Positions 2,536 to 43,227 of a stretch of DNA of 64,000 nt are shown here, one piece after another; within the stretch, counting starts at the first letter, position 1, and every line of letters begins with the position of its first letter. Source of the stretch: Pseudomonas graminis (lineage in GTDB: Bacteria > Pseudomonadota > Gammaproteobacteria > Pseudomonadales > Pseudomonadaceae); assembly GCF_013201545.1 (NCBI RefSeq), contig NZ_CP053746.1:4974501-5038500 (forward strand), given 5' to 3'. A model generated the notes under the pieces. That model ran no database searches and had not been told where the DNA came from. It saw only the letters and a list, made by a program, of their open reading frames with translations. Both the position numbers and the translations under genes were made by a program.

Positions 2536-2620
2536 CCGAACTCCCCCTCCCTTTGATATCACACGGGGCAATGCCCCAAAATTGGCCGCTTATGTCAAAA
2601 AAGCGTGAAAATGTAACAAA

Positions 2621-2711: not shown

Positions 2712-4134
2712 TTAACGGTGTTTAACAGCCGCTGAAACGGCGGCGGCAAAGATGTCGCCGATCTGGTCGATCTGCGCGGCGGTGACGATCAGCGGTGGCA
2801 GGAAACGGATGACCGACGAGTGCCGCCCGCCCACTTCGATGATCAAGCCGCGCTGCAGGCATTCACGCTGGATGGTCGAGGCCATCGCACCGCTGTGGGG
2901 GAAGTGGCCGAGGGCGTCGGGGAGGCCGTCGAGATCGACCATTTCCACCCCCAGCATCAAGCCCATGCCGCGCACATCGCCCATCTGCGGGAAGTCCTTC
3001 TGCAATGAGCGCAGGTGCCCGATCAGGCGCTCGCCCATGGCGGCGGCGTGCAGGTCCAGCTGCTGTTCGCGGACGATGCGCAGCGTGGTGGACCCGGCCA
3101 CCATCGCCAGCTGATTGCCACGGAAAGTGCCGGCGTGGGAGCCCGGTTTCCACACGTCCAAGGACTTGTTGTAAACCACCACCGCCATGGGTTGGCTGCC
3201 GCCGATGGCTTTGGACAGCACCAGCACGTCCGGGACGATGCCCGCGTGTTCGAAGGCGAACGGCTTGCCGGTGCGGCCCACACCACACTGGATCTCGTCG
3301 AGAATCAGCGGCACCCCGGCGTCGCGGGTGATGCGGCGGATTTCCCGCAGCCAGTTGGCCGAGGTCGGCACCACACCGCCCTCCCCCTGCAGGGTTTCCA
3401 GAATCATCCCGGCCGGCGGCAACACGCCGCTCTCCGGGTCAGTCAGCTGGTTCTCGATGTAGTGCAGGCCGATGCGCTCGCCCGCTTCGCCACCGACGCC
3501 GAACGGGCAGCGGTAGTCGTAGGGAAACGGCAGGAACTGCGCGCCGCCGGCCATGCCGTCCAGGTAGGTCTTCGGCCCGAGGTTGCCCATCAGCGCCAGC
3601 GCGCCCTGGGTCATGCCGTGGTAGGCGCCGTGGTAGGCCATCAGGTTGCTGCGCCCGGTGGCCGTGCGCACCAGTTTCAGCGCCGCTTCCACCGCATCGG
3701 TGCCGGCCGGGCCGCAGAACTGAATGCGCGCGTCCTTGGCGAATTCCGCCGGCAGCAGGGCGAACAGCTCGTTGATGAAGTCGTCCTTGGCTTCGGTCAT
3801 CAGGTCCAGGGTGTGCAGCGGACGCTGACCGTCCAGGGTGGCGCGCATGGCCTGGATCACCTCGGGGTGGTTGTGCCCCAGCGCCAGGGTGCCGGCGCCG
3901 GCCAGGCAATCGATGAACCAGCGCCCTTCGCTGTCCTGCACGTGAATGCCCTGGGCGCGCTTGAGTTCCAGGGGGATGCGCCGCGGGTAGCTGCGCGCGT
4001 TGGATTCCACGGCGGCCTGGCGCTCCAGTCGCGGGGTCGGCGCAAAGCGGTAGTCGGCGTTGGCCACGGCGGCGTCCGGGCTGCTCGACAGCGCCTCGCT
4101 GTGGCGGGCGGCAATCGGCGTCACGTTGTGTTGG

Positions 4135-4142
<8 letters not shown>
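2712..4142 (-). CDS. Diaminobutyrate--2-oxoglutarate aminotransferase (PvdH-like)
   Basis: PLP-dependent class III aminotransferase of 476 residues, close in length to PvdH. It should convert L-aspartate-4-semialdehyde to L-2,4-diaminobutyrate (Dab) with glutamate as amino donor. Visible family features include CGPAGTDAVEAALKL, the YHGAYHGMT segment, the LILDEIQCGVGRTG motif with its PLP-ring Asp, and the PLP lysine in VLSKAIGGSQP. The ATG at 4142 overlaps the end of the NRPS gene by 8 bases, with AGGAG just upstream, so it is translationally coupled; the longer upstream frame lies inside the NRPS gene and is not used. Module 2 of the synthetase carries a Dab-type A domain, which explains why this gene is in the operon. 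Confidence 0.88.
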
Positions 4143-20318
<16,176 letters not shown>

Positions 20319-20319
<1 letters not shown>

Positions 20320-29300: not shown

Positions 29301-30053
29301 CGCCGGGCGGCCGAGGAAATAGTTCGGCGACATCAGCGTCAGCGTGCCGCCGTAGTACAGCGGCAACAGCAGGCCACACATCAGGCCCATGTCGTGGTAC
29401 AGCGGCAGCCAGCTGACCCAGCTCTCCACCCCTGAATCGGAGACAAAATGCCGGGCCATGGCGACTTCGTTGGCCATGAGGTTGTCGTGGGAGACCATCA
29501 CGCCTTTCGGTGCGCTGGTGGAGCCCGAGGTGTATTGCAGGAAGGCCAGCGAGGCGGTGTCGATCAGCGGCGCCAGAAACCTTGCGTGGCCGTCGCTGAT
29601 CTCCTCGACGGCAGCGAAACGCCCGCCAGCGGGCATGAACGGCTGCAACAGGTGCTGGAATTTATCCAGATCTTCCCGACGCCCGATGACCATCTGCGGC
29701 GCGGCGTCGTGGAGGATGCCGGTGAGCCGGTCCAAGTGCGTCTGCCGGTTGTATTCGGGGGCGAAGGCCGGTACGGCGATGACTTTGGCATACAAACAGC
29801 CGAGGAACGCCGCCGCGTAATCCGCGCCGGTCGGCAGGATCAGCACGCAACGCTCACCGCCCTGCACGCCCAGGTGTTGCTGCAGGTGCGCGGCAATCGA
29901 GCGCGCCTTGGCATCCAGCTGGGCATAGGTGGTCAGCAGCGGCGGCTGGTCCTCGTGGACGATGTGTCGAAGGGCAATCCGGTCCGGCTGGGTCTGCGCA
30001 TAAAAGCCCACCAGTTCGGGAAAATGCGCGGCCTGATCTCGTATGGATTTCAT
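20319..30053 (-). CDS. NRPS with fatty acyl-AMP ligase loading domain (acyl - D-Asp - Dab)
   Basis: Initiating synthetase of 3244 residues. Order with approximate residues: fatty acyl-AMP ligase ([11 protein letters not shown] ~178), ACP (GGDSVGVVQ ~625), C (HHIIADGW ~820), A (~1150-1640), PCP (~1668), E ([10 protein letters not shown] ~1855), D-accepting C ([10 protein letters not shown] ~2315), A (~2650-3130), PCP (GGHSLLATR ~3180). My pocket code for the first A domain is DLTKIGHVG, close to the known Asp code DLTKVGHIG. The second reads DIWELTADD, a Dab-type code as in PvdL. The chain is therefore N-acylated D-Asp-L-Dab. The layout resembles PvdL without the chromophore Tyr module. No C-terminal thioesterase is present, so the chain passes to the next protein. 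The ATG at 30053 with AGGTGA upstream is preferred over an upstream in-frame TTG. No fused Asp beta-hydroxylase domain is visible. Confidence 0.92.
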
Positions 30054-30182
30054 TCTTTCACCTGTTTGTATCGGCAAGGCTCAACCCGCAGGCAGCGCGA
30101 AGGCGGCCCACAACGTTGTGAGAAAAGAGTGGGTGGCCGCTGACGACCACCGCTATGACGGGCTTTGTTTATCGGCCCGGGC

Positions 30183-31529
30183 TTAGCGCGCCAGCTTGAG
30201 TGCCACGCGCGGCTCGGTCTGCACCTGCAACGACCCATGGGCAGAGCGCGCCGAGCACGGTTGCGCCTGATCGCCGAAGATCGATTCGACGACCTCCTGG
30301 GAGCGGATCGCCAGCACCGACAACAGCGTGTCGCTCAAACCGTGGCTGTCTTCGCAGCAACCCTGGAGAAAAATGCCGGCCTCGCTGCCGGGGCTCAGGG
30401 GCAAGCGATAGTGACGGTCGACATTGGCGCCCTGGATGTATTCCTGAATGCCCGAGAGCAGTTCCAGGTGGTAGTCGCGGCGGTAACCGGTGGCGAGCAC
30501 GACAACGTCGAAGGACTCGCTGTGCATCTGGTCATGGGGCGCGTCGCGCAGGAACAGCTCGATGCCGTCGGCGGCCACTTCGGCGTGCACCACTTCGCGG
30601 TTGGTGAGCATGCGGTGACGCTCTTCGCCGCGCACCTTCTGCTGGTACATGCGCTGGAAAATCGTCTCGATCAGGTCGGTGTCGACAACTGAATAGTTGG
30701 TGTTGCGGAACTCGTCGAACAGCGCGACGCGACGCTCCTGGCTGTGATTGAAGATCGTGTCGGTGAACGACGGGTTGAAGATCTGATTGACGAAGGGGCT
30801 GTCATCGGAGGGCTTCAGCGCGCTGCCTCGAATCACCAGGGTGGCCTCGACGTTGTCGAAACGCGAGGCCAGGTCTTCGAAGATTTCCGCCGCGCTCTGA
30901 CCGCCGCCGACCACCGCCACGCGCACCGGGCCGGGGCGATTGGCGAGGAGCTTTTCGATGCCGCCGCGATAGCCCGCAGAGTGCAGCACGCGCGCATCTT
31001 CAAGGCCGTCGAAGGCCGCCGGCGCCTGGGGAATGCCGCCGATGCCGAACACCAGATTGCGCGCGCGGCGGCGTGAGACTTCACCGTTCGCATCGCGGGA
31101 CAGCACGTCCATGGCGACAAAGCGGCCGTCTTCGAAATGCGGCTCCACCGACATCACCTCGGCGCCGTAATGGGCTTGATCGGTGAAGTGCGAGGCCGCC
31201 CAGGTCAGGTAATCGGTGTATTCCTCGCGGGTCGGAAAGAAGGTCTTGAGGTTGATGAAGTCCTGCAGGCGGCCGCGCTCGTTGAGGTAGTTAACGAAGG
31301 TGAAACGGCTGGCCGGATTGCGCAGGGTCACCAGGTCCTTGAGGAAGGAAATCTGCATGGTAGAACCGTCGATCAGCATGCCTTCGTGCCAGTTGAACGC
31401 CGGCTTTTTCTCGAGGAAACACACGTGGGGCGCCAGACCGCTGCGCTGTGCATGCTCCCGGGTGGCGATGGCCAAAGCCAGGTTCGACGGGCCGAAACCG
31501 ATGCCGATGAAGTCGTAGACGAGTTCCAT
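30183..31529 (-). CDS. L-ornithine N5-monooxygenase (PvdA-like)
   Basis: FAD- and NADPH-dependent N-hydroxylating monooxygenase of 448 residues (PvdA is about 443). It should convert L-Orn to N5-hydroxy-L-Orn, the hydroxamate precursor. It has the FAD motif GIGFGPSNLALA (~9-20), the QISFLKDLVTLRNP segment that is highly conserved in PvdA, the NADPH motif VVGGGQSAAE (~205) and the C-terminal VLATGYRR. The start is the ATG at 29 residues before DFIGIG-type PvdA alignment would fail: the ATG at 31529 directly precedes ELVYDFIGIG and has GAGAGGGAAG upstream, while the longer frame to 31619 adds 30 residues unlike the family. Lysine as substrate cannot be excluded. It is preceded by an iron-starvation box and a Fur-like box. 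Confidence 0.87.
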   Translation of the reverse strand: MELVYDFIGIGFGPSNLALAIATREHAQRSGLAPHVCFLEKKPAFNWHEGMLIDGSTMQISFLKDLVTLRNPASRFTFVNYLNERGRLQDFINLKTFFPTREEYTDYLTWAASHFTDQAHYGAEVMSVEPHFEDGRFVAMDVLSRDANGEVSRRRARNLVFGIGGIPQAPAAFDGLEDARVLHSAGYRGGIEKLLANRPGPVRVAVVGGGQSAAEIFEDLASRFDNVEATLVIRGSALKPSDDSPFVNQIFNPSFTDTIFNHSQERRVALFDEFRNTNYSVVDTDLIETIFQRMYQQKVRGEERHRMLTNREVVHAEVAADGIELFLRDAPHDQMHSESFDVVVLATGYRRDYHLELLSGIQEYIQGANVDRHYRLPLSPGSEAGIFLQGCCEDSHGLSDTLLSVLAIRSQEVVESIFGDQAQPCSARSAHGSLQVQTEPRVALKLAR

Positions 31530-31629
31530 GCTTCCCTCTCGTAAGGCGCGATGCGCGATCGACTCCGGCAGGCCGAACGACCAGGTCGCTGGCGCCGGAT
31601 GGCCGTTCACGCGCATCAAAAATGTTTAA

Positions 31630-31692: not shown

Positions 31693-33387
31693 TTACAAAG
31701 CCTTTACAGTTTTGAGCTGATACGCGGCGCCGATCTCTTCCACCGCGTCGCGGCTGGCGTTTTCGCGGCGATCACCTTGCAGCTCGCTGAGCTGCCCGGA
31801 CTCCATCTTCACCAGGCGGTCGGCGAGGTCGAAGTACTGGTCGTCGTGGCTGATGGCGAACACCGTGACGCCGGCCTTTTTGAACATCGGCAGCAGCTCG
31901 CGGTAGAAGAAGCGGCGGAACAACGGGTCCTGGTCGGCGGCCCATTCGTCCAGCAGCAGAATGTCGCGTTTCTCCAGCAGCGCCAGCATCAGCGCCAGGC
32001 GTTTGCGCTGCCCCTGGGAAAATCGGGTGTCGAGCAAATGCCCATCGGCGAGCTGCACCTTGTGCTTCATGTGCAGCTTTTCCAGCCAATGCTCGACGTC
32101 AGCCACGTCAGCGTTTTGCCCATCGGGCCCGAGCAGTTGGGCAAACAGGTGGAAGTCCGTGAACACACTGGCGAACAGCTGACGATAGGCCAGCCAGTCG
32201 GCTGAACCGATGACCTGGCCGTCGATCAGAATCGTCCCTGCCGACGGTCGATACAGGCCGCTGAGCAAGCGCGCCAGGCTGGATTTGCCGCTGCCGTTGC
32301 CGCCCATAAGGAACACGGTTTCGCCCCGGCGCAGGATCAGGTTGACCGGGCCGACATCGAAACCGGGCTCGTCGCCCTGGGGCGCATAGTGGTATTCGAC
32401 GTCACGCAGTTCGAGGGTCTGCCAGTGACCGGCGATATGGCTCGGGGCGACGTCGAAGCTTTCGTGATGGTCGGCCAGGGCCAGCGACTCGACTTTATCC
32501 AGCGCCACGCGCCCGGAGATCTGCGCCGGGATCGCCGCCACCGCCAGCACCAGCGGCGTGCGCATGAACAGCACGGTCAGCGCATAGGTCGCCGCCACTT
32601 CCGTCGGCGCCCAGCCCAGGCCGTTGGCCAGGTAAAACGCCAGGCCAATGGTGCCGAGGACCATGATGTTGGCCCAGTTGCTGGCCAGTCCGTGATAACG
32701 GTCGGCCAGGGTGAAATGCTCTCGGTAGCGCTGGGCGGCGACGTCGAAGGTTTCTTCGTACAGACGGCGCGCGCGGTCGCGGTTGAGGGTCAGCTCTTTG
32801 CGCCCGTCGATCACCCCTTGATAGCTCTGATAGAGCTTGTCTTCGGACTCACGCAGCGCGCGGATGTGGGCGTTGAGTTTACCCACCAGCAGCCAGCCGA
32901 CCCCCAACGTGAACGCCATCCAGCACAGCGTGGTGATGAACAGCGACGGCGACAGCCAGGCCAGGTAACTGAACGACGCGACGCTGAGCACCGAGCCGTA
33001 GATCAGGTCCGGCAGCTGTACGAAGGCCATGGTCACCGCGCGAATGTCGCTGGACAGGCTGGCGAAGATCTTCGCCCCGCCGATGGATTCGATGCGCTCG
33101 ATGTTGGTGTCCAGCAGGCGCTTGACCATCACCCGACGCAGGCCATAAACGAACCGGTGACCCAGCGCGGTCAGCGACAGCGACGCCCCGGACGCCAGCG
33201 CCAGCAGCACGGCGAGCATCAGGCCGAATTGCCACAGCGCGGTGCCGAGGCCGTCGTGACTGCTGATCATGCGTTGGTTGACGAAGGCAATCACGCCGAC
33301 GCTCAACAGCCCGCTGCTGACGCTCAGCAGCAGCACCATCGCAAGCGGCCAGCGGTATTGCTGGAAGACCAGACGAACTAATTTCAT
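31693..33387 (-). CDS. Cyclic-peptide-type ABC exporter (PvdE/SyrD family)
   Basis: Fused membrane and ATPase ABC half-transporter of 564 residues. The first ~300 residues contain about six hydrophobic segments. The ATPase domain has Walker A GGNGSGKSS, the unusual signature FSQGQRKRLAL and Walker B DILLLDEWAADQDP, all characteristic of the PvdE/SyrD cyclic-peptide exporter family. It probably moves the acylated siderophore precursor from cytoplasm to periplasm. GGAG precedes the ATG by 6 bases. It lies 45 bases after the sigma-factor gene and is probably co-transcribed with it. Confidence 0.88.
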   Translation of the reverse strand: MKLVRLVFQQYRWPLAMVLLLSVSSGLLSVGVIAFVNQRMISSHDGLGTALWQFGLMLAVLLALASGASLSLTALGHRFVYGLRRVMVKRLLDTNIERIESIGGAKIFASLSSDIRAVTMAFVQLPDLIYGSVLSVASFSYLAWLSPSLFITTLCWMAFTLGVGWLLVGKLNAHIRALRESEDKLYQSYQGVIDGRKELTLNRDRARRLYEETFDVAAQRYREHFTLADRYHGLASNWANIMVLGTIGLAFYLANGLGWAPTEVAATYALTVLFMRTPLVLAVAAIPAQISGRVALDKVESLALADHHESFDVAPSHIAGHWQTLELRDVEYHYAPQGDEPGFDVGPVNLILRRGETVFLMGGNGSGKSSLARLLSGLYRPSAGTILIDGQVIGSADWLAYRQLFASVFTDFHLFAQLLGPDGQNADVADVEHWLEKLHMKHKVQLADGHLLDTRFSQGQRKRLALMLALLEKRDILLLDEWAADQDPLFRRFFYRELLPMFKKAGVTVFAISHDDQYFDLADRLVKMESGQLSELQGDRRENASRDAVEEIGAAYQLKTVKAL

Positions 33388-33432: not shown

Positions 33433-34014
33433 CTAGAGCTCGCCGAGCCGCGCGCGGCAGTGAGAGAGGGTGTCGCGCAGGAGGAAATTGACCATGGTCG
33501 GCGAGGTGCCGATGACCTTGGCCACGTCGCGCTGGGTGTAGCCCTGGATCTGGCTGAGGTCGAAGACAATGCGCATGCGTTTGGGCAATTCGTTGAGCGC
33601 ACCGACCAGTTGATCGAGGGACTCGCGGCCCGCCAATACACGCTCGGGGGACACCTCGAAACGTATCTGCTCTTCCTGCTCGGCTTCAGCGCCGTGGTTG
33701 CGTTCAAGACGCTGGCGGCGAAGACGGTCGATGGACAGATTGCGCACAACGCGAAACATGTAGCGTGCAGGCTCCGCCGATGCGAGGTCGCTTTCGAGCA
33801 TCTTCACGAAAGCGTCCTGCACCACGTCTTCGGCGCGAGCGCGACAGCCGAGGAATTTTGCCGCCAGCCGCAACAGCGCTTCGCGGTGGGTGTTGTAGGT
33901 GCCCATCAGCGCGTCGAGGCGCGGGTCTCTCGCGCCACGGGTGGCGCCAACACACGGTGAGCCGACCCGGGTGGGGTGGCCCGTTGCAGGGCGAAAATCC
34001 ATCTTGTTCGACAT
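33433..34014 (-). CDS. ECF sigma factor, PvdS-like iron-starvation type
   Basis: Extracytoplasmic-function sigma factor of 193 residues (PvdS is 187). Region 2 shows CRARAEDVVQDAFVKML and FRVVRNLSIDRLRR. Region 4 shows LPKRMRIVFDLSQIQGYTQ and VIGTSPTMVNFLLRD, very close in pattern to PvdS (SPTLVNFMIRDALVHCR). It should drive the siderophore genes under iron limitation. No FecR-type anti-sigma gene is next to it. A Fur-like box lies 31 bases upstream. The start is uncertain: the ATG at 34014 and an in-frame ATG four codons later are both possible. Confidence 0.88.
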   Translation of the reverse strand: MSNKMDFRPATGHPTRVGSPCVGATRGARDPRLDALMGTYNTHREALLRLAAKFLGCRARAEDVVQDAFVKMLESDLASAEPARYMFRVVRNLSIDRLRRQRLERNHGAEAEQEEQIRFEVSPERVLAGRESLDQLVGALNELPKRMRIVFDLSQIQGYTQRDVAKVIGTSPTMVNFLLRDTLSHCRARLGEL

Positions 34015-34044
34015 CCCTGGTTACAAAGGAACGCGAAGGATAAC

Positions 34045-34063
34045 GCAAACGATTCTCATTGCA
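34045..34063 (-). promoter_or_regulatory. Fur-box-like site upstream of the sigma factor gene
   Basis: The minus strand reads GCAATGAGAATCGTTTGC, with the same AATGAGAATC core as the site before the hydroxylase gene. It suggests Fur represses the sigma factor when iron is sufficient, as for pvdS. Confidence 0.6.
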
Positions 34064-34205
34064 ACGTAGGAATTTTCCCACAAATGTGCAAAGCCAGTCC
34101 TGTCGATCATGACTCCTCGAGCAAGGGTTGCTCAACATCGACGCTAGAGCTAAAGGTGGATGGGCATGTGAACAGTGATAAGCAATGTCGTAAGAGTCGC
34201 TGACG

Positions 34206-35594
34206 CTACGGACCAATTTCAAGCGAGTTCCCAATACTAGCCCTCCCTATGGCAGTAGCGATCCGTAGATGAGACAAATTCAAGTCAACAATATCTTCAA
34301 AGCTTTGTTCTGCAAGTGTTGAGTAGGTCTCGGTAGACTGGAGCACTTCGGCTAGCGAGCCAACGCCAGAGCGGTAGCGTCCCTCAATGATATTTAGCGA
34401 TAAGAGAGAATTCTGGACCAGATGGCCAGATTGCTCTATGCGCTTTCTTGCGCCCATTAATTCTTGGTAGTCAGACCATAGTTTTGCGCGAACTGTTTCT
34501 TCGATGAATTCTGCCTCAATCAGCCGAATGTTTGCTTGTTGAGCCGCTCGTTCCATTAACATTCGGCGCTTTCCCCATGGATCAAGAGGTATATTCAAAC
34601 TAAACATAATTGCATTGTGATTGTTGTTTCTGTTTCCAGGCAGAACGTCAGACTTATAGACCCGGCTATTAGAAACATTTGCTGCCAGCATCACTGTAGG
34701 CCTGCCCGATGCTCTTTCACTTTCGACAACATGTAACGAAGCCTGAACCCGCGCCCTCGCAGCTTTGATTTGAGGGTTAAATTCTTGGGATAACTCTAAA
34801 AGCTGGTCTAAGTCGGAAAAAATGTCTCGAGTGAACGTGTCTCTGATGTTTTCTTGGAGTTGGATCTCTACCGAAGAGTGACATCCTATCAGCGTCGCGA
34901 GATGGCCTGTCTTTTTGCTGAATATCACGCGTGCCCTATTCACATCTGCGACAGATTTGTCGTAGGCGATTTTTGCCTTAAGGGCATCAGAGTAAGGCGA
35001 CAATCCTTTTTTGAAGTGCGCATCGGCAACAGCTAGACTTCGTTCCAATACATCTGAAACCTGCACATAGGACCGCAATCGATTCTGACTTAACAACACG
35101 TCATAATATAAAGCTGCTGACTGAAGCAATATATCATTAGAAACCACTGTCCAATGCCAGAATTTAGCCTCGTCAAGCGCTTTGTAGTGATCCACGTTAG
35201 CACGTCGGGCACCTGAGTCGAATAGCAACCAACGGGCAGAAAGCTTCTGCGATATTTCAGCCGTTCTGTTTTTAGGTGGGCCAGCATTATAGCTGGTATT
35301 TAAAGAACTTACAGTGGAATCAACTGAGTAATTAAGCTCTGGGTAATAATCCGACTTCGCGATGGTTAGATTTCGCCTACTTTGGTCGAGTTCAACAAGC
35401 GCAATACGGCGATGTGAACTGCTCCCCATACTCAAAAGGAGAACCTCCTTCAATGAGAGAAGTTTCAGACTTACATCTGAAGGACACTTGGGATGTTGAT
35501 ACCCAAGCTCAGTAAGCATCGCTATTGGGGAAGCGTTGAGCGCTCCAACAAATGAAATTAAAATCAGACCAGCTAAAAAATTCAACTTGTTCAA
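34206..35594 (-). CDS. TolC-family outer-membrane channel of the microcin exporter
   Basis: Outer-membrane efflux protein of 462 residues with an N-terminal signal peptide (hydrophobic run LNFLAGLILISFVGAL) and two TolC-type halves. Long helical stretches such as QNRLRSYVQVSDVLERSLA and the repeat-like GRYRSGVGSLAEVLQSTE are typical of the OEP family. It is the last gene of the AT-rich operon, 40 bases after the ABC exporter gene. A dedicated channel would complete a three-part type I secretion system; enterobacterial microcin clusters instead borrow the chromosomal TolC. The start is a TTG at 35594 with AGGA upstream. AT-rich composition contrasts with the flanking siderophore genes. Confidence 0.82.
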   Translation of the reverse strand: MNKLNFLAGLILISFVGALNASPIAMLTELGYQHPKCPSDVSLKLLSLKEVLLLSMGSSSHRRIALVELDQSRRNLTIAKSDYYPELNYSVDSTVSSLNTSYNAGPPKNRTAEISQKLSARWLLFDSGARRANVDHYKALDEAKFWHWTVVSNDILLQSAALYYDVLLSQNRLRSYVQVSDVLERSLAVADAHFKKGLSPYSDALKAKIAYDKSVADVNRARVIFSKKTGHLATLIGCHSSVEIQLQENIRDTFTRDIFSDLDQLLELSQEFNPQIKAARARVQASLHVVESERASGRPTVMLAANVSNSRVYKSDVLPGNRNNNHNAIMFSLNIPLDPWGKRRMLMERAAQQANIRLIEAEFIEETVRAKLWSDYQELMGARKRIEQSGHLVQNSLLSLNIIEGRYRSGVGSLAEVLQSTETYSTLAEQSFEDIVDLNLSHLRIATAIGRASIGNSLEIGP

Positions 35595-35634
35595 GCCAAA
35601 ATTCCTATCCTTTCACCGGCATAGCGCCTGCGTG

Positions 35635-37740
35635 CTATGCCTTAAAGTTATGTTTTATGGCACCTTCTTCGAGAATCACAACGCGGTTAGCCGCCGCTAT
35701 TGCCTGCGGTCGATGAGCCACCATAACTTTCGTTATATGCGACAAGCTTAAAGCTTCATTAACAAGGAACTCGTTAGCTATATCTAAATGACTCGTCGCC
35801 TCATCTAAAAAAAGAATCGACGGCTGTTTATAAAAAGCTCGCGCAAGCATTACACGCTGGCGCTGCCCGCCTGATAGAGCTACTCCCATGTCGCCTACAA
35901 GAGTTTGGTACCCCATCGGCAACTTGATGATATCTTCGTGAATGGCGGCAAACTTAGCAGCATCTACGACTTTCTCCTCATCAAATGAAGGATCGAAAAA
36001 TGTAATATTTTCAAAAAGCGATCCAGCGAACAAGACGTCATCTTGAAATACGCAGGAAGAGATTTTTTGAAGTGAGAGCCCATTAGTGACATCAATGCCA
36101 TTGAGAAGTACATGCCCCTCAGTGGGCCGCAACAAGCCCAACAAAATGTTAAGAAGCGTGCTCTTACCGCTGCCGGACGAGCCGGTTATGGCCAAAAAAT
36201 CGCCAGCCTTAATGGTGAGATTCAAGTTTCTTAATATCCATGGCGATGAGCTGTCATAACGGTAACTCAAGTCACGCAGCTCAAGCAGATCAAATTTAAA
36301 CCCGCTAGGTTCTGCGCAGGATAATTGAACCGAATCTGGCTCTGACAGCACGATGTCTGACAACCTCTCTACTTCAAGGCGCATCACACAAAGCTCCAGC
36401 ACTTTATCGATCAGGCTTACCAATCTTGCACCAAACTGAACTCTGTATGAATTGTAGGCAGTTAATACGCCAATTGAAAAAAAACCCGCCATTACCATCT
36501 CGGCCCCTATCCATAAGGCAATAATGTGCTCTAAACCACCTATAAGACCAGTAGCTTGCTGGTAGCACAAGTTCAGACGGTGAGATTTAGTACCAGCGTT
36601 TACCTGTCTCACATATAAGGCAACCCACGATGAGTGTCGATCACCTTGTCGACCAAATGCTTTGAGCGTTCTAATTCCGCGCAATGACTCAATCAAGTTA
36701 GTTTCCTGTCGTGTCGCGCATGCAATATGCTGAGCAGTCGCAGTTTTTAAAGGTGCAAACCAGAAAAAACGCAACGCGCAGTGCGCCGACGCTGCAGCAA
36801 CACTTACAAGGGCGAGCCCGGCGCTGTAATAAAACATCATTACAATAGTAACAAGCGCCATGAAACCATCCAAAATTGATACTAAAAATCCCGAGGTCAG
36901 AGTTTGCTGAATAGCGTTCACACTTCCAAATTTTGATATTAAATCACCCAATGAACGATTTTGAAAAAAGCTTATCGGTAACCTCATTAGATGATCTAGG
37001 ACGTTAGAACGCCATTGAACTCCCGCCAACGTACTAAAATACATAACCATCCACTCGCGCGCGAACTTGAGAGCCTGTTGTATTAATAACAAAAAAATGA
37101 ACGCACCCGCAAGGGTGGGCAGAAACTCATTATCATTATTTAGTATAATGTGATCTATCAACCACTGAAAATACAATGGACTTATGATCATTAGCAATTC
37201 AAGCACAAAAGATATTATCAGGATTTGCGTTAAAGACCCCCCAAGACCAATGAAAGACGCCTTTAAGTGTTTCAGAGATAGCCTTTCGCGACGACTTACT
37301 CTTTGGAAGTCCAGTTTTGGCCAAAGTTCTAATGCAACACCGGTAAAACTCTTTGACAGTAATTTAATGGGGAGACGCTCTACACCTTTGACAGGATCGC
37401 AAATGACTGCGCCCTTTTCAGTCACTGACTGCAGCACTACAAAATGATTGAATTTCCAGTGAAGAATGCAAGGCATACTAAGCTTCCTCAATTCAGGAAG
37501 CGAAACGCTCAGTGCCCTACTTCCTAATTTTTCAGCTGCTGCTACCTCGATCAAATGTCGTAGGCTTACGCCTTGATTAGACGAACCGTACTTGCCCCGC
37601 ATTTCATTGAGCTGCACGCAGTTGCCGTGATAATTACTGATCATTGTTACACAGGCCAAACCGCACTCGGAGATTTCAGACTGATAAACGATTTTAACTT
37701 TTTTCTTAGCGCTAAACACTAAACTCTCGTAGACACTCAT
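35635..37740 (-). CDS. Peptidase-containing ABC exporter (C39, MchF/CvaB type)
   Basis: Bifunctional exporter and leader peptidase of 701 residues. The N-terminal C39 domain keeps its catalytic set: Q20 and C26 in YQSEISECGLAC, H99 in KFNHFVVLQ and D115 in CDPVKG. Six membrane segments follow (~160-440). The ATPase has Walker A GSSGSGKS (~520), signature LSGGQRQR and Walker B SILFLDEAT. It should cleave the microcin leader after the Gly-Ala pair and export the mature peptide with ATP. It overlaps the adaptor gene by the 4 bases ATGA, indicating translational coupling. Confidence 0.92.
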   Translation of the reverse strand: MSVYESLVFSAKKKVKIVYQSEISECGLACVTMISNYHGNCVQLNEMRGKYGSSNQGVSLRHLIEVAAAEKLGSRALSVSLPELRKLSMPCILHWKFNHFVVLQSVTEKGAVICDPVKGVERLPIKLLSKSFTGVALELWPKLDFQRVSRRERLSLKHLKASFIGLGGSLTQILIISFVLELLMIISPLYFQWLIDHIILNNDNEFLPTLAGAFIFLLLIQQALKFAREWMVMYFSTLAGVQWRSNVLDHLMRLPISFFQNRSLGDLISKFGSVNAIQQTLTSGFLVSILDGFMALVTIVMMFYYSAGLALVSVAAASAHCALRFFWFAPLKTATAQHIACATRQETNLIESLRGIRTLKAFGRQGDRHSSWVALYVRQVNAGTKSHRLNLCYQQATGLIGGLEHIIALWIGAEMVMAGFFSIGVLTAYNSYRVQFGARLVSLIDKVLELCVMRLEVERLSDIVLSEPDSVQLSCAEPSGFKFDLLELRDLSYRYDSSSPWILRNLNLTIKAGDFLAITGSSGSGKSTLLNILLGLLRPTEGHVLLNGIDVTNGLSLQKISSCVFQDDVLFAGSLFENITFFDPSFDEEKVVDAAKFAAIHEDIIKLPMGYQTLVGDMGVALSGGQRQRVMLARAFYKQPSILFLDEATSHLDIANEFLVNEALSLSHITKVMVAHRPQAIAAANRVVILEEGAIKHNFKA

Positions 37741-39011
37741 CTAATATCCAAATCGCGCTTTCTATAAAAAGGTTCTAAGAATAGTTCGTATAATCGTTGT
37801 TTAGGCCTCATCAAATTAGCCTGCACCGTTAAGCCCGCCTTTAATTGATAGCGCACGTCATTAACAGTGATAGATTGATCTTGCAGTGCAACACGAATCA
37901 AGAAGAAATCGCTTTTTGCGCTTGCTCCATCAACATAGTGGCGACCTGCTGAGTTATAAGGATTGGCGGTAGAGCCCGTTACAGATATTACCCTTCCCCT
38001 TCCAAACCCATAGTGCTGATAAGGATAAGCATCAAACCGCAGTTCGACCTCGTCCCCCGCCGTTACGAAGCCCACTGCAGAACTTGAGGCATATAGCACC
38101 GCTTCCATTGTTGAATGCTCAGGGACAAGGGTTAGCACTTCACCGCCCACCAGCACGGACTGGCCGACGCCAACAGAAATGGAACTGACAACCCCGGCTA
38201 CTGTTGCAGTAACTGGAAAATCCCGCTCATGATCTTTTTGTCTAGCGCTGTTAGTGATTACACCCAACTGCCTTCTGAGTGTTGAGATTTGAGTTCCAAG
38301 GTTAACGACAGCTCGCCTACTTTTTTCACGCAACTCATCTGCTTCAATATCGACAGCTGTCGTTTCACTCCGCAATCTCTCACGACGCTGAAGCTGAATA
38401 TTATATTCTGTTTTTTTAATCTGAACCTGCTCTACAGACACATAACCTTTTTTTAATAATTCACTATACCTACTGACCGCGTTTAAGCTTACCGCCAAAA
38501 GCTGATTTTGACTATTAATCTGGCTTTCAATACGAGCGGCTTTCTCTTTAAGCCTGCTCAGTGACTGTGGCAGCGCACTAGCCTCGTGGGCCGACTGAAT
38601 TTCCAGTTGATTGATTTCCGCCTGAAGTAGCTCAATGCTCTTAGCCAACCCATCAACCTCCGCCTTGATAAGTGGTTTCTTATCTAAATCGTATCGTTCA
38701 CTCGAAACCACAAACAAAACGTCCCCTTTTTTCACCACACTGCCTACTTCGACATGTCGCGCTACGACTAACCCAGCTCTCGCGGGAGTGATTCTTATCA
38801 GGCCTTTCTCAGGTAGAATTTCACCCACCACCAGAGTTCGCTTATTGAATGTACCTACTCCAAATAAGACAATTAAAGCCGCCACTACTAGCATGCTAAA
38901 AGTCACTACATACTTAAATGTTATAGGGCGTACAATCAATATTTCGCCTACTTCAAGTGCATTGAAATCCTTGACTGCCTCCGTTCGAAATAACCCTGCT
39001 CTTGGATTCAA
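37737..39011 (-). CDS. HlyD/CvaA-family periplasmic adaptor (MchE type)
   Basis: Membrane-fusion protein of 424 residues. A single transmembrane helix near residues 34-54 is followed by a biotinyl-lipoyl-like half (ARAGLVVARHVEVGSVVKKG), a coiled-coil hairpin (~90-230), the second lipoyl half (VTATVAGVVSSISVGVGQSV) and a beta-barrel. It would link the C39 exporter to the TolC-like channel. The start is a TTG at 39011 with AAGGTG six bases upstream. It follows the acyltransferase gene by 43 bases. Confidence 0.88.
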   Translation of the reverse strand: MNPRAGLFRTEAVKDFNALEVGEILIVRPITFKYVVTFSMLVVAALIVLFGVGTFNKRTLVVGEILPEKGLIRITPARAGLVVARHVEVGSVVKKGDVLFVVSSERYDLDKKPLIKAEVDGLAKSIELLQAEINQLEIQSAHEASALPQSLSRLKEKAARIESQINSQNQLLAVSLNAVSRYSELLKKGYVSVEQVQIKKTEYNIQLQRRERLRSETTAVDIEADELREKSRRAVVNLGTQISTLRRQLGVITNSARQKDHERDFPVTATVAGVVSSISVGVGQSVLVGGEVLTLVPEHSTMEAVLYASSSAVGFVTAGDEVELRFDAYPYQHYGFGRGRVISVTGSTANPYNSAGRHYVDGASAKSDFFLIRVALQDQSITVNDVRYQLKAGLTVQANLMRPKQRLYELFLEPFYRKRDLDIR

Positions 39012-39054
39012 CTCAGCACCTTAGATACGCCTCCAAAATATGCATTCAACGTTG

Positions 39055-39525
39055 CTAGGCAGAAATTATCTCAGACGAAAAGCCAGATTTGCCACTGCGA
39101 ATTATTTTTCGAGGTACCAATCTTACATCCCTTCTTACCCAGGAAATGTCATCACCCCTAAAACGGCAACGAATATCTTGTATTCCTGCACTAAGATCGC
39201 CATATGGAAAGCAAAAGTCTATGATCCATAGGCTACTCCCCTCATTCCATTCGGAGGGATGAAGCATAAAATCAGCGTCATTGATTAATCTACTTGATAC
39301 CTCATCACTTAATAAAGCCCAGGTATAATATCCTCGAACGTCGCCAAAACCTGAGAATATAAAGGCTATCTGCTGATGTAATATTGCTGGTTCGATCCAG
39401 ATCTTCAAAGCCAGTACCTGCGAAAATCTGTAGGTAGGTGAGTTGGTAATCAGCATGACCGCATAGCCAAGGTCGTGCGCATGCCTAACAACCGCAGTAT
39501 TACTTGTCGAATTGCAGTAAGTCAT
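39055..39525 (-). CDS. HlyC-like acyltransferase (MchD/MceI position)
   Basis: Protein of 156 residues resembling toxin-activating acyltransferases (RTX-C/HlyC family). The segment GYYTWALLSDEV...WIIDFCFPYGD aligns with HlyC AYCSWANLSLEN...WFIDWIAPFGD. D103 matches the functionally required HlyC Asp92. The position of HlyC His23 (SPLHR) is Tyr32 here (SPTYR), so the usual catalytic His appears to be replaced. In enterobacterial class IIb microcins the homologue MceI works with MceJ to attach a siderophore to the C-terminal serine. The ATG at 39525 overlaps the previous stop (ATGA) with AGGGG upstream, so the longer frame is rejected. The acceptor substrate is unknown. Confidence 0.78.
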   Translation of the reverse strand: MTYCNSTSNTAVVRHAHDLGYAVMLITNSPTYRFSQVLALKIWIEPAILHQQIAFIFSGFGDVRGYYTWALLSDEVSSRLINDADFMLHPSEWNEGSSLWIIDFCFPYGDLSAGIQDIRCRFRGDDISWVRRDVRLVPRKIIRSGKSGFSSEIISA

Positions 39526-41216
39526 CTTGCCACCCCTACTAACCACGGGAGATAAAATTTATAGCAATCATATGCGATGGCTTTAAGATGGCCAAAAGTT
39601 ATCATACGATCAAAGCCCTCCGTTCTAGTCACACCGTCAATTGTGATTATAAATAGATTATCGCTCCCCTTGTAGACAATCTTGGGCGAAGCCGGCCAAA
39701 CTATCTGTTCATAAAAACACGAACGACCGAACAAAAAATCCCCCTCACAAACTTTCTCATCAACATAGTGGGCTATCCAAGACATATCACCCCGGCCAGG
39801 CTTATTAGAATAGCGCAGCATCTCATTCATCTTCTGACTAACGACGATCTGTTCCCTGCACTGAAAAGCTCTTACTATACTAGTGTTTAGGAAATACAAA
39901 AAAGATTCCAATCGGTATCCCTTTAATAGACAGTATTCAGCTAGCTCATTCCTTAAATTGTGTTTATTTGAACTTAACTTGTCTGACGCGCAACTATCCA
40001 CATACGACATGAGACTCCTTTTCAGCTGGGCTATCGATCCCTCTTCAAAAAAAATTAACAGCAGCACTTTTCCTAATGAGCTGATCTTGGCACCCCCTAG
40101 GTATCCGTCATCTCCAGCTTTGAAACGACGAGCTGTTTCTATTTCTAGTAGTAGAGTGATAGATTCAACCACCACCCTCCCATTCAGACCATCCGACAAC
40201 ATGCCCTGATCTAGCCCTAAAAGGTTGAGCAAAGCGCTGAACAGAATAGTTTTCGATTTCTCCGCATATAGGCGTTGAACGTCTCTTCGTACCTCCGCCG
40301 TCAATCCTGCACAGCCAGCACAATACTTTTCACAGTTATACGCAACGTCAACAATGGCTGCGATAAGTACCATATCTTGATTTTTTAGCTCGCGATCCCA
40401 TACAAAGGTTGTCGATTCAGACGCTGGAAGGATATCTACTGTGCCGAAATCTAACAAACGTCCTTCAATAGTCAAGTTAGATGGTGACGCGGTATGCACA
40501 AGCCGCCTGATTTTGAGTTCTGCATACTGAACTAAGAACCGTTGCACCAGCTCGAACAATCCATGTCGTATATCACGCATCGCGCCAATTCCGGCCCGAT
40601 CTAATGCACAACCAGTTTTAGTATAGGGCAGGTAAGCTGCTAGTTTCTGGACCGAGACTTTCACACGTTCAGCATCAGCTAACCCACCTAAGCGAGACTT
40701 GAAATAGATCGCCCGTTGGAAATGTGCTAATCTCAGATGCTGAGACCTTAACATCAAACTGTAAATTTCATCTTCGACCCCACCTGAGGGCAAAGCAAGT
40801 AGATGCTCAATATCTACTACACCATAAGGCAGTATATTTTTAAATATTCTTGACCATACGATTTCACAAACAGCACTCTGCAACGTTAATTTTCCGTCTA
40901 ATTGAGAAATATCGTACCCGTCTCCTATCAAAGGAGTAAGTCCTATCCCCTTCACCTGAAGCTGATTCCCGATCCCGCATCGCCCACCACCTCCGTTGTG
41001 GAGTATCCCGCTTCCTCCGTAGCGCTCTGCGTAAAATACCTTATGCGTTTCTGCCCGTGTGGTGGCTTCGACCACATATGCATACGCGTTCAACAACTGT
41101 TTTTGCCGACGTGAACTTATTTTTTTTTTGCTAAAAACCAGTTTGGCCGATGGCACAAATGAGGCTGAGAAAGGCACCAATAATTCAGGCAGTTTATCCA
41201 CTATGTTTAGAACCAT
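39522..41216 (-). CDS. SelO-like protein in MchC/MceJ position
   Basis: Protein of 564 residues. The N-terminal half follows the SelO (YdiU, protein adenylyltransferase pseudokinase) pattern: a glycine-rich segment YGGSGILHNGGGGRCG, LQVKGIGLTP (Lys89 matches the ATP-binding Lys), SAVCEIVW (Glu118 matches the Lys-pairing Glu), and SNLTIEGRLLDFG (Asn247 and Asp256 match the metal-binding Asn and Asp, with the same 9-residue spacing). The SelO catalytic Asp just before that Asn is Ser246 here. Size and place match MchC/MceJ, the partner of MchD/MceI in siderophore-microcin clusters. By inference it could activate the microcin C-terminus with ATP. It is preceded 6 bases upstream by the immunity-like gene, with a weak ribosome binding site. 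Confidence 0.72.
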   Translation of the reverse strand: MVLNIVDKLPELLVPFSASFVPSAKLVFSKKKISSRRQKQLLNAYAYVVEATTRAETHKVFYAERYGGSGILHNGGGGRCGIGNQLQVKGIGLTPLIGDGYDISQLDGKLTLQSAVCEIVWSRIFKNILPYGVVDIEHLLALPSGGVEDEIYSLMLRSQHLRLAHFQRAIYFKSRLGGLADAERVKVSVQKLAAYLPYTKTGCALDRAGIGAMRDIRHGLFELVQRFLVQYAELKIRRLVHTASPSNLTIEGRLLDFGTVDILPASESTTFVWDRELKNQDMVLIAAIVDVAYNCEKYCAGCAGLTAEVRRDVQRLYAEKSKTILFSALLNLLGLDQGMLSDGLNGRVVVESITLLLEIETARRFKAGDDGYLGGAKISSLGKVLLLIFFEEGSIAQLKRSLMSYVDSCASDKLSSNKHNLRNELAEYCLLKGYRLESFLYFLNTSIVRAFQCREQIVVSQKMNEMLRYSNKPGRGDMSWIAHYVDEKVCEGDFLFGRSCFYEQIVWPASPKIVYKGSDNLFIITIDGVTRTEGFDRMITFGHLKAIAYDCYKFYLPWLVGVAR

Positions 41217-41222
41217 TTATTA

Positions 41223-41453
41223 CTAACCGGCCCGACTATGGGCTTTGAAAAAAGCGAACAACATAGGCGATACCACCATCACAACTGTGCCTGCCACTAC
41301 CAACTTGTCCACACCAAATACGCCGTCATTGAATATCGTCATTAATACTATCAGTGAAAACACCAATGAAGACGTTGACCAGGCTTGAATGACAAATTTA
41401 CGTCTCTCTTGATCTGTCATTTTAGCTGTTTTATCTCTAATGAAATGTTCCAT
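41223..41453 (-). CDS. Small two-helix membrane protein, probable microcin immunity
   Basis: Protein of 76 residues with a charged N-terminus and two predicted membrane helices (WSTSSLVFSLIVLMTIF and LVVAGTVVMVVSPMLFAFF) ending in a basic tail. Small hydrophobic immunity proteins of this kind (such as MchI) lie next to class IIb microcin genes. The ATG at 41453 has AAGGTGG upstream; a GTG two codons earlier is less likely. It follows the microcin gene by about 50 bases, with a hairpin between them. No sequence-specific signature proves immunity; the call rests on size, topology and position. Confidence 0.62.
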   Translation of the reverse strand: MEHFIRDKTAKMTDQERRKFVIQAWSTSSLVFSLIVLMTIFNDGVFGVDKLVVAGTVVMVVSPMLFAFFKAHSRAG

Positions 41454-41471
41454 AATCACACCACCTTGGTA

Positions 41472-41493
41472 AGGGACCCATGTTAAGGTCCCT
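41472..41493 (-). promoter_or_regulatory. Hairpin between microcin and immunity genes
   Basis: AGGGACC (41472-41478) and GGTCCCT (41487-41493) form a perfect 7-bp stem with an 8-base loop in the gap after the microcin stop codon. There is no T run. It may protect the precursor mRNA 3' end or attenuate downstream expression, so that more precursor than enzyme is made. Confidence 0.45.
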
Positions 41494-41505
41494 ACAGTCG
41501 CCGAC

Positions 41506-41742
41506 TTATGATTTTGCTGCGCTATTTATTTCTTTACCAATGCTATATCCCACCGCAAATGATGCTCCTAATGCGCCTCCAGCTATTGCGCCTGCAGCTG
41601 TCCCGACGCCCGGAATTCCAGACCCGATTCCAGCGCCAAGCGCAGCGCCGGCGCCAGCCATGTTTGCGGCAAGACCAGCTGCATCGGCTAGCCCATCCGC
41701 CCCCGTAATCAAGTCTATCTCGTATGCCGTTAATGGCCTCAT
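41506..41742 (-). CDS. Class IIb-type microcin precursor
   Basis: Precursor of 78 residues. The first 15 residues, MRPLTAYEIDLITGA, match the class IIb double-glycine-type leader (compare the MchB leader beginning MREITESQLRYISGA), so C39 cleavage after Gly14-Ala15 is predicted. The 63-residue core is very rich in Gly and Ala with many small-xxx-small motifs (GAGIGSGIPGVGTAAGAIAGG), has no Cys and ends in NSAAKS. It therefore keeps a C-terminal Ser but lacks the long Ser/Gly tail of enterobacterial siderophore-microcins. GGGAGGAAGG lies just before the ATG. It heads the operon of modification, immunity and export genes. Activity and modification are inferred. Confidence 0.82.
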   Translation of the reverse strand: MRPLTAYEIDLITGADGLADAAGLAANMAGAGAALGAGIGSGIPGVGTAAGAIAGGALGASFAVGYSIGKEINSAAKS

Positions 41743-41959
41743 GTCCTTCCTCCCTTCGGGAAATTGTACGAATTAAGATTTTATCCTTAACATAAGTTTT
41801 AGCTGAGGTTTTTAATCGGTTATTTACAACCAGTTCCTCAGTCAGGCTCAGTCAGCATCTTCGCAACGTGAGCTAAACTATCTATATTCTGGTAAGTCTG
41901 CTACAGACTTCCTCACTACATACAAAGACAAAATACACATGCTTTGTAGTTCTCGCCGT
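41743..41959 (-). promoter_or_regulatory. AT-rich leader upstream of the microcin gene
   Basis: This 217-base gap should hold the microcin promoter. It contains AT-rich stretches such as TATGTTAAGGATAAAAT (minus strand) and a small inverted repeat GGTTGTAAATAACC. I found no convincing Fur box or PvdS-type box here, so iron control of the microcin gene itself is not supported by this segment. Confidence 0.3.
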
Positions 41960-42175
41960 TCAAGCGGACATTTTTTTGAGCCAGCTTATTCTTCTGATAG
42001 ATCCCTGCATATAGTAATACGCCTCTAATTCCTGCCTTTCCTCACCTAATATGCGCTCCAATTCTAAGCCACTTCTACGAAGCAATGCTTGCCCAACGGA
42101 GTCATTATGCGAATTACCACTTTCAAACACCCCCGCTGCTATATGTGACCAGCACCTACGCCTATGTGTAGTCAT
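41960..42175 (-). CDS. Small hypothetical protein upstream of the microcin gene
   Basis: Open frame of 71 residues starting MTTHRRRCWSHIAAG and ending SWLKKMSA, basic at both ends with an acidic, helical middle (ELERILGEERQELEAYY). AAGGTGG precedes the ATG. It has no membrane segment or double-glycine leader. Its place ahead of the precursor gene recalls mchX in the MccH47 cluster, but I cannot claim sequence similarity. It may be a regulator, a second small factor or a chance frame. Confidence 0.4.
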   Translation of the reverse strand: MTTHRRRCWSHIAAGVFESGNSHNDSVGQALLRRSGLELERILGEERQELEAYYYMQGSIRRISWLKKMSA

Positions 42176-42226
42176 CTGTCTTACCACCTTGTCTTTATTG
42201 AAACCATCGAACAGGCCTTTCGAAAA

Positions 42227-42270
42227 ATATTAACAAAGGGAGCTTTAGAGTCAATCAATAATTATCGAAA
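42227..42270 (-). promoter_or_regulatory. Possible sigma-70 promoter with an overlapping Fur-like half site
   Basis: On the minus strand TTGACT (42254-42249), 16 bases, then TAATAT (42232-42227) form a plausible promoter for the small gene at 41960-42175. Just upstream, TTTCGATAATTATTGATTG contains GATAAT-like hexamers that could be a weak Fur site. Both matches are partial. Confidence 0.3.
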
Positions 42271-42639
42271 TCCCGGCACAATTTTTTTTCAAAAATCCTG
42301 AAGACGTCGTTAATTACCTGCTAGTTACCCTGAAACCACGGGGCGAAGTTTGATTCCCCTCCCCCAACCATTACCCGATAGTGGTAGAACTCATTACTTC
42401 GCCATTTAAATCCTTCAACTGCATTTTTAGACATTATTTAGAAATCCTGTCTCGGCGGGATAAATGTGGCAACGATGGTTAAACGTTTCAGCTGTGAATG
42501 CTTTTTTCCCGACATATAGACGTGAGAGGGCTCCGCATGACTGGCTTGCAGCTAAAGGACCTATGTCTGCCAGAGTCGATCGCTATGCTCAACCGTCACC
42601 TGGCGCGCGCAGCGTCTCTGCTTGCGCAGCGTTTTAATA
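42271..42639. other. Intergenic junction between AT-rich block and host-like sequence
   Basis: Base composition returns to GC-rich across this stretch. No tRNA, integrase, insertion sequence or clear direct repeat is visible. A 50-codon plus-strand frame beginning at 42537 behind GAGAGGG runs antisense into the nudK end; I do not recognise it and it may be a gene remnant. Confidence 0.4.
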
Positions 42640-43227
42640 CTAGACATCCAGCTGCACCAATTTCAGCGCGAGATACTGCAGGAGCATGATGGTCTTGCCG
42701 TCGTTGATTTCGCCGCTTTCCACCATGGCGATGGCCCGCTCGAAATCCAGCTCCAGGACTTCGATGTCTTCGCCCTCCTCTTCCAGCCCGCCGCCGTCGC
42801 TGACCCGATCATGGGGCTGGTATTCGCCGATGAAAAAGTGAATGCGTTCGGTCACCGAACCGGGGCTCATGAAGGCGTCGAAGATCTTCTTCACCGAACG
42901 CACGACGTAGCCGGTTTCTTCCTCGGCTTCCATGCGGATGCGCTCTTCAGGGCTGGCGTTGTCCAGCAATCCTGCTGCCGCTTCGATCAAATAACCGCTG
43001 TGGCCATTGACGAAGGCCGGCATGCGGAACTGGCGGGTCAGCACCACGGTGCGGCGTTCGAGGTTGTACAACAGAATCGTCGCGCCATTGCCCCGGTCGT
43101 AGACCTCGCGGGTCTGGGACTGCCAACTGCCGTCACGGCGTTGCAGCTCGAAGCTGTATTTCTTGAGCACGTACCAGTTGTCGGAGAGGAGTTGTTCATC
43201 GGTGATGCGGATGGGGGTGGAAGGCAT
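42640..43227 (-). CDS. nudK: NudK-type Nudix hydrolase (GDP-mannose pyrophosphatase family)
   Basis: Nudix hydrolase of 195 residues (E. coli NudK is 191). The Nudix box region reads [26 protein letters not shown] in pattern, with the metal-binding EAEEE-TG core. Upstream [20 protein letters not shown] and the following [16 protein letters not shown] are typical of the ADP-ribose/GDP-mannose pyrophosphatase group. It would hydrolyse GDP-mannose or related nucleotide sugars. The residue before the first Nudix Glu is Met where the general motif has Arg. GC-rich, host-like composition. Confidence 0.8.

Follow-up and report, generated by a model that had tools for sequence, protein, structure and literature searches.

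Class IIb microcins as treated in PMC11634061 and PMC10233263 carry enterobactin or a derivative of it and come from Enterobacteriaceae. In microcin E492, glucosylated enterobactin is linked to the C-terminal Ser84 (PMC6071977). According to the same paper, a complex of MceI and MceJ attaches salmochelin to Ser84 and is needed for siderophore attachment, as also stated in PMC3281104. We analyzed 64,000 nt from the genome of Pseudomonas graminis (RefSeq assembly GCF_013201545.1, contig NZ_CP053746.1, positions 4,974,501 to 5,038,500; this whole stretch is referred to as the window, with positions counted from its first letter). It contains a cassette (34073..42663) that encodes MchC- and MchD-type proteins, the counterparts of MceJ and MceI, beside a microcin-type precursor, and that is inserted next to a locus of the formomarinobactin type. 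On balance, we favor the interpretation that the cassette makes a 63-residue microcin-type peptide and that the MchC/MchD pair likely couples its C-terminal carboxyl to formomarinobactin, the predicted product of the adjacent locus.

The annotated mch cluster of Escherichia coli Nissle 1917 (microcins H47/M; mchB, mchI, mchC, mchD, mchE, mchF) was used as reference in BLASTP comparisons. It shares with the cassette the homologous pair, the adaptor and the C39 exporter, a leader of 15 amino acids (aa) ending in Gly-Ala, and, next to the precursor, an immunity gene for a small hydrophobic protein. Its distance from iroN and iroB is about 15-25 kb, and a TolC gene was not seen in the 23 kb retrieved. 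Unlike the Nissle cluster, the P. graminis cassette has its own TolC-type gene and adjoins a hydroxamate-type siderophore locus, in a genome without a convincing IroB; the Nissle microcins end in Ser/Gly-rich tails, whereas no Ser run is present here.

A microcin with a Gly-Ala leader has been described outside the Enterobacterales, Mcc17978 from Acinetobacter baumannii, where the mobile element Tn6552 carries the microcin genes together with the fimsbactin siderophore system (PMC10333792). These genes are an exporter, an HlyD protein, a cupin-like gene, and the microcin. The main text of that paper uses neither the term "MchC" nor "acyltransferase." This precedent makes a microcin that travels with a siderophore system less surprising. 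Formomarinobactin is a hydroxamate lipopeptide siderophore of the Pseudomonas lutea group with the locus fmbA-K (PMC13037486); the main text of that report does not contain the word "microcin," and the cassette is an addition found here. Among titles and abstract openings in open-access PubMed Central (PMC), which leaves subscription papers and most preprints outside, no siderophore microcin from Pseudomonas was found, and no open-access PMC paper combines "marinobactin" with "microcin."

Gene content of the cassette

The original prediction was of a tightly packed minus-strand cluster of seven genes. All seven open reading frames (ORFs) are present on that strand at the predicted positions in the ORF list of the window, and domain matches agree with the assignments. 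The precursor (41506..41742, 78 aa) starts with the 15-aa leader MRPLTAYEIDLITGA (41698-41742), which ends in Gly-Ala (double-glycine type, as in class IIb) and resembles the leader of MchB. With 35 Gly/Ala residues, the 63-aa core is as Gly/Ala-rich as had been proposed; it has a calculated average mass of 5417 Da, 0 Cys (class IIb candidates have fewer than two), and the C-terminus GKEINSAAKS. Its sole relative in the protein database is P0005 (44% identity), which has the segment ALGASFAVGY in common but not the tail. A small hydrophobic ORF begins 52 bp past the precursor stop, inside the 200 bp within which a transmembrane-type ORF is sought. Its product (41223..41453; start in the ORF list GTG 41459) has two hydrophobic stretches and no family match above cut-off in Pfam or NCBIfam; by position and hydropathy it is a putative immunity protein.

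The next two genes encode homologues of MchC/MceJ and MchD/MceI, a pair that is found beside class IIb precursors. The MchC-type protein (39522..41216) is 34% identical to Nissle MchC over 350 aa (E 1e-46). The MchD-type protein (39055..39525; start in the ORF list GTG 39546) has a Pfam HlyC match (1.8e-15) and is 43% identical to Nissle MchD over 89 aa (E 4e-26). These values bear out the earlier assignment of the pair. An HlyD-family periplasmic adaptor and a C39-peptidase ABC exporter, both also features of class IIb clusters, follow. The MchE-like adaptor (37737..39011), recognized by Pfam and NCBIfam, shows 22% identity to MchE over 420 aa, and the MchF-like exporter (35635..37740; Peptidase_C39 5.2e-32, ABC_tran 4.6e-31) shows 37% identity to MchF over 679 aa. 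The last gene codes for a TolC-family outer-membrane channel (34206..35594; Pfam OEP 2.5e-35). The ATGA-type overlaps, described as "several," are real but number two (MchC/MchD and HlyD/C39). At the cassette head is a small ORF (41960..42175, minus strand, 71 aa from ATG 42175) without a relative at E <= 1e-3 among the ORFs of 31 loci compared.

A comparable gene set is met in other genomes, which argues for more than a chance arrangement. Judged by homology, this is a real mch-type cluster; it most likely works like class IIb, with a new siderophore partner. It is a candidate member of class IIb, with a predicted conjugation and with a tail that lacks the Ser-rich end by which the class is partly defined.

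The MchC/MchD pair

At the sequence level, the SelO fold that had been proposed for the MchC-type protein finds no support in the window protein: 0 Pfam families were found at E up to 1, and a profile search of PDB sequences retrieved no SelO. Its AlphaFold2 model has a mean pLDDT (predicted local distance difference test) of 82.5 and matched nine PDB chains below E 0.001 in Foldseek, eight of them named SelO/YdiU and one named uncharacterized (E 7e-11 to 4.5e-9, TM-score about 0.5-0.6). Two MchC relatives match SelO weakly, with 19.7 bits (under the cut-off) and 25.7 bits (over it). The SelO (pseudokinase) fold holds by predicted structure. A distant relationship of MchC to SelO has been published before, and the carriers named there include Cellvibrio, Vibrio, and Xanthomonas (PMC3281104). 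We aligned 25 MchC-type proteins: the window protein, P0002, P0003, and those encoded by the 27 loci introduced below except L034, L040, L043, L044, and L046 (22 proteins). The residues K89, E118, N247, and D256 are invariant in all 25. By analogy with kinase families, they would be residues of the nucleotide site.

The model of the MchD-type protein (pLDDT 82.6) has ApxC (4whn, E 2.9e-9) as its best Foldseek match. An alignment of 24 such proteins comprised the window protein and 23 others, from all 24 MchD-bearing loci but L039. At the position of the catalytic His of ApxC/HlyC, the window protein has Tyr, and the 24 proteins have Tyr (20), His (2), Ser (1), or Phe (1). The conserved Asp of the HlyC fold (Asp110) is present in 23 of the 24. 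Since Tyr occupies the position of the catalytic His in an otherwise HlyC-like fold, lysine acylation of the HlyC kind appears unlikely.

In Albitalea terrae, MchC-type, HlyC (3.6e-25), and erythromycin-esterase-type parts follow one another within a single ORF (L041:2241-5537, 1098 aa), which fits MchC and MchD being a working pair. The same locus holds a second MchC-MchD pair besides the fused ORF.

Insertion of the cassette

The GC content of the cassette is 44.7%, compared to 64.6% and 61.4% for its flanks, and the cassette is therefore probably a recent horizontal insert, as far as composition can tell. We searched 398 genomes of the genus with fmbB, the second gene of the adjoining locus. 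At the DNA level, 27 genomes (window genome included) match at E <= 1e-100, and the seven most similar of the 26 others were compared at the insertion site. In four relatives (fmbB 94-95% identical), the match on the fmbA side stops at window position 34072 and restarts on the NUDIX side at 42664-42674 after 74-84 bp. The distance from the NUDIX stop to the fmbA start is 117 bp in these four relatives, 345 bp in G152, and 396 bp in G195, compared to 8,625 bp in the window. The cassette is a clean insertion, and its right edge coincides with the final codons of the NUDIX hydrolase gene (42640..43227, minus strand). The pseudomonad version that had been predicted is no stable trait: the cluster is an insert that is absent from the closest relatives examined. 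No terminal repeats were found at the insert ends.

In G068 (L111), about 2.4 kb between fmbA and a MocA-type gene are unmatched to the window, and the NUDIX match was not seen there. A further insertion, or a replacement, has thus affected the site at which the six other relatives have the NUDIX gene.

A Fur-box-like sequence near fmbA (about 34039-34063), with a weak score, is left in place by the insertion. The best Fur-consensus score in the window (15/19) falls inside the C39 gene. Fur control of the cassette was considered and rejected, the consensus scans being no better than shuffles. Promoter and terminator scans were likewise at shuffle level.

The adjoining fmb locus

Directly downstream of the cassette, on the same strand, are seven genes in the published order fmbA-G. 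The original prediction had the cassette carry all genes needed, yet it contains no siderophore gene; the likely partner would come from this adjoining operon. In the 5.52-Mb genome, nine condensation domains of nonribosomal peptide synthetases (NRPS) were found, all within fmbD and fmbE. A genome search for IucA/C gave no match, the only IroB match has 22.6 bits (25% identity over 121 residues), and the best EntE match is 28% identical, so that no convincing homologue of EntE is seen. From this combination, formomarinobactin is the likeliest partner, provided that the siderophore attached by the pair is one that the strain makes itself. Pyoverdine was rejected as partner on the condensation domains found, and a catecholate on the EntE and IroB results.

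With IroB, the homologue of the glucosyltransferase MceC on which microcin E492 depends, represented by so weak a match, glucosyl-enterobactin chemistry is probably not applicable as it stands. Formomarinobactin, if attached, would be a non-catecholate partner, joined with no glucosyl step.

The operon begins with fmbA (33433..34014), an extracytoplasmic function sigma factor gene assigned by Pfam/NCBIfam and gene order. It continues with fmbB for a PvdE-like ABC exporter (31693..33387; Pfam, gene order) and fmbC for an ornithine/lysine N-monooxygenase (30183..31619; NCBIfam, gene order). By domain search and gene order, fmbD (20319..30077) encodes an NRPS with a starter region, a putative FAAL that has an AMP-binding-type match, and two modules, and fmbE (4135..20319) encodes an NRPS with four modules and a thioesterase. 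A family match identifies fmbF (2712..4418; true start probably internal) as a diaminobutyrate-2-oxoglutarate transaminase. The TonB-dependent siderophore receptor encoded by fmbG (319..2571) scores best with FhuA/FoxA models, below their equivalog cut-offs. In FmbE, adenylation domains 1 and 3 are 93% identical and domains 2 and 4 are 98% identical. By their specificity codes, the pockets would select Asp and diaminobutyrate (Dab) in FmbD and Ser, hydroxyornithine (OHOrn), Ser, and OHOrn in FmbE. The resulting pattern Asp-Dab-Ser-OHOrn-Ser-OHOrn agrees with that given in the text of PMC13037486.

The locus thus has the fmbA-G order, six modules, and the thioesterase end, with fmbH-K-like genes elsewhere. 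The latter are together at 3.81 Mb and code for an MbtH protein, a dioxygenase-like protein (weak matches), a formyltransferase-like protein (PurN model, 4.7e-9), and FhuF. According to PMC13037486, fmbH-K are split from fmbA-G in P. abietaniphila as well; gene order and module pattern are as in the published locus. In G020, labeled as the same species as the window, fmb matches are only short and the aligned right flank is about 80% identical. P. bohemica is reported as a formomarinobactin non-producer (PMC13037486).

Distribution of MchC loci

An MchC match was found in 6 of the 398 genomes of the genus (window genome included), and four of the five other carriers have MchD beside it (G268, G210, G143, G236). 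In G026, neither MchD nor a C39 exporter was seen in the stretch read around the MchC-like ORF (L011:7930-9654), whose neighbors are a gene of prolyl oligopeptidase type and a FecCD-type importer. When one genome per species (84,980 species) was scanned by sequence pattern, 27 MchC loci were obtained, 8 from Pseudomonas, 15 from Enterobacterales, and 4 from others; G143, G210, and G236 are also among them. MchD adjoins MchC in 24 of the 27 loci by tblastn, and a weak BLASTP match adds L043. The protein database returned 4 matches to MchC, itself included, and a plasmid search gave 21 records, 15 of them from Salmonella and none covering 80% of the query. The viral collection contributed one locus in all, contig L119 (IMGVR_UViG_2660238352_000015), which encodes an MchC relative (34%).

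Siderophore-gene queries covered the retrieved flanks, at most 10 kb per side, and found siderophore-type genes in the flank of 12 of the 27 loci. An EntF-type NRPS directly precedes MchC in four (P. gessardii, Serratia rubidaea, S. ureilytica, S. nevei), a two-gene NRPS comes right after MchD in three (Photorhabdus asymbiotica, Intestinirhabdus alba, and S. bockelmannii; L023, L027, and L030), and IroB is in the flank of five. The two-gene NRPS pairs may make siderophores; for S. bockelmannii, the domains were checked.

The P. gessardii cluster (L009/L017/L026) resembles the cassette in gene kinds, its own TolC, and the pseudomonad host. It differs in that a complete enterobactin-type operon (entC, E, B, A, and F) stands immediately before mchC-mchD, which are followed by a helix-turn-helix-like ORF (by eye) and the precursor; the HlyD, C39, and TolC genes are divergent from the ent-mch genes. 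The ent products are an isochorismate synthase, a dihydroxybenzoate (DHB)-AMP ligase, an isochorismatase with aryl carrier protein, a DHB dehydrogenase, and an EntF-like NRPS with condensation, adenylation, thiolation, and thioesterase domains. The precursor ends in SSDDSKSSDSQSGT, a Ser-rich tail with Thr as final residue. On this contig (L017, L009, L018; G143:C115), ORFs resembling integrative and conjugative elements or recombinases were seen by eye on one side and IS66-like ORFs on the other. The clusters of P. thivervalensis, P. lactis, P. antarctica, and P. mediterranea also have precursor, MchC, MchD, HlyD, C39, and TolC matches but differ in gene order and MchC clade and have no siderophore-gene match near. 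Similar gene sets are thus present in other Pseudomonas, but the seven-gene order is not kept.

Two pseudomonad TolC queries matched the retrieved stretch of 6 of the 8 Pseudomonas loci. In a seventh, that of P. gessardii, the match is just beyond the stretch (L017), and the eighth (L036) stops at a contig end. No match was obtained in the 15 enterobacterial loci, some of which were short or truncated, or in the 4 others. An outer-membrane channel belonging to the cluster had been predicted correctly; by these matches, an own TolC-type channel appears usual in pseudomonad clusters and not peculiar to this cassette. An SbmA-like transporter gene adjoins the TolC gene in L007 (16657-17784) and L010 (10335-11576), and a similar gene was noted by eye in L008.

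In a FastTree phylogeny of the 25 MchC sequences, the window protein joins P0002 at a support of 1.0 and stays outside the main Pseudomonas clade, which likewise has a support of 1.0, and P. gessardii MchC groups with enterobacterial sequences. By this tree, MchC of at least three lineages is found in Pseudomonas.

The pseudomonad precursor tails vary, with SAAKS here and RNISSS, RLSNGS, ESGGA, GGGGGK, GNRGG, GGGGAA, GIMGIMA, and GGMGS elsewhere. Among the 15 enterobacterial loci, Ser-rich tails with terminal Ser are clear in L021, L022, L025, L042, and L047; the remaining ones have other tails or no clear precursor candidate by the search pattern used. A survey of class IIb microcins used a serine-rich C-terminus ending in Ser as criterion (PMC11634061). 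As described there, it would pass over most pseudomonad precursors, since their tails mostly lack such an end.

Proposed attachment to formomarinobactin and its alternatives

Several observations weigh against coupling of the peptide to formomarinobactin. The precursor has no Ser/Gly-rich C-terminus of the class IIb kind (Ser is last and 2 of the final 5 residues are Ser, with no Ser run), so that attachment at the C-terminal Ser is hypothetical. The NCBIfam model for E492-group microcins, the best named microcin match, scores it at 10.7 bits (cut-off 50). The MchD-type protein is without the HlyC catalytic His. None of the 26 other fmbB-like genomes of the genus is an MchC carrier. A Fur-consensus scan of the 921 bp upstream of the precursor reached 12/19 at best, with a shuffled median of 12. 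The siderophore-gene negatives cover NRPS, EntE, IroB, and IucA/C; other metallophore routes (e.g., opine types) were not searched. Finally, 15 of the 27 MchC loci, including 7 of the 8 named pseudomonads, have no siderophore-gene match in the flank (<=10 kb), and the adjacency of cassette and fmb could therefore be chance.

This last point leads to the alternative of a class IIb-type microcin modified with a non-local molecule (a xenosiderophore, a lipid, or other), its position beside fmb being fortuitous. It is in keeping with the differing precursor C-termini (last residue S, A, T, K, or G) and with the tree, where the window MchC and P0002 make up a separate clade, distinct from the one linked to catecholates. 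However, siderophore-type genes are linked in 12 of the 27 loci, and the genome, in which all nine condensation domains found are in fmb, IucA/C is missing, and the EntE and IroB matches do not convince, points to the local product; we regard a non-local partner as unlikely, though worth serious consideration. The absent Ser-rich tail and the lost His would also suit an unmodified class IIa-like microcin, with MchC/MchD as chaperone, immunity-type partner, or relic and siderophore receptors still serving as entry, as for Mcc17978, which by the account in PMC10333792 works without any gene called MchC or acyltransferase. We find this improbable, given that the site residues do not vary among the 25 MchC-type proteins, that all but one of the 24 MchD-type proteins keep the Asp, that the reading frames are intact, and that MceI/MceJ are reported to be required for siderophore attachment (PMC6071977, PMC3281104).

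The Pfam HlyC match, and NHLM_micro_ABC1 as best NCBIfam model for the ABC protein (451 bits vs. a cut-off of 853), might suggest an exporter cluster of the RTX or nitrile hydratase leader peptide (NHLP) type with HlyC-like lysine acylation of an exported protein. None of the ten proteins scanned has an RTX or nitrile hydratase-leader Pfam match, the catalytic His of HlyC is Tyr, and the BLASTP ties are to MchC, MchD, and MchF; we have discarded this assignment as highly improbable. The lowest probability goes to a decayed or silent insert without product. Its low GC and the single carrier among the 27 fmbB-type genomes sampled would fit, but the seven frames are open, starts overlap, and conserved residues are retained.

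If formomarinobactin is the partner, MchC would use ATP at its SelO-type site to activate the C-terminus of the peptide, and MchD would transfer the activated peptide to an amine or hydroxyl group on the siderophore; either of the two serines could serve, though the choice of acceptor is a guess. Published formomarinobactin ions have m/z 874.7-932.7 (PMC13037486); taken as singly protonated and with one water lost, they would add about 856-914 Da to the core and give conjugates near 6273-6331 Da. The C39 exporter would trim the conjugate after Gly-Ala, and the conjugate would leave the cell by way of HlyD and the TolC-type channel encoded in the cassette. The TonB-dependent receptors with which competitors import formomarinobactin could then admit it, in Trojan-horse fashion, while the two-helix small protein may protect the producer. 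A receptor mutant of P. rhodesiae has been constructed (PMC13037486).

A broader claim, to which we give slightly less than an even chance, is that MchC/MchD form a ligation module with a swappable siderophore (glucosylated enterobactin, un-glucosylated Ent-type catecholates, two-gene NRPS products, and a hydroxamate lipopeptide). The cassette would then make the first microcin with a non-catecholate, membrane-anchoring siderophore and no sugar linker, acquired by insertion into a siderophore locus.

If these interpretations are correct, one enzyme pair would weld ribosomal peptides to unrelated siderophores, and bacteria that import marinobactin-type siderophores would be open to Trojan-horse uptake. 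It would also explain why pseudomonads have been missed by searches requiring a Ser-rich tail. Comparing the MchC lineages makes the question of the MceI/MceJ substrate directly testable.

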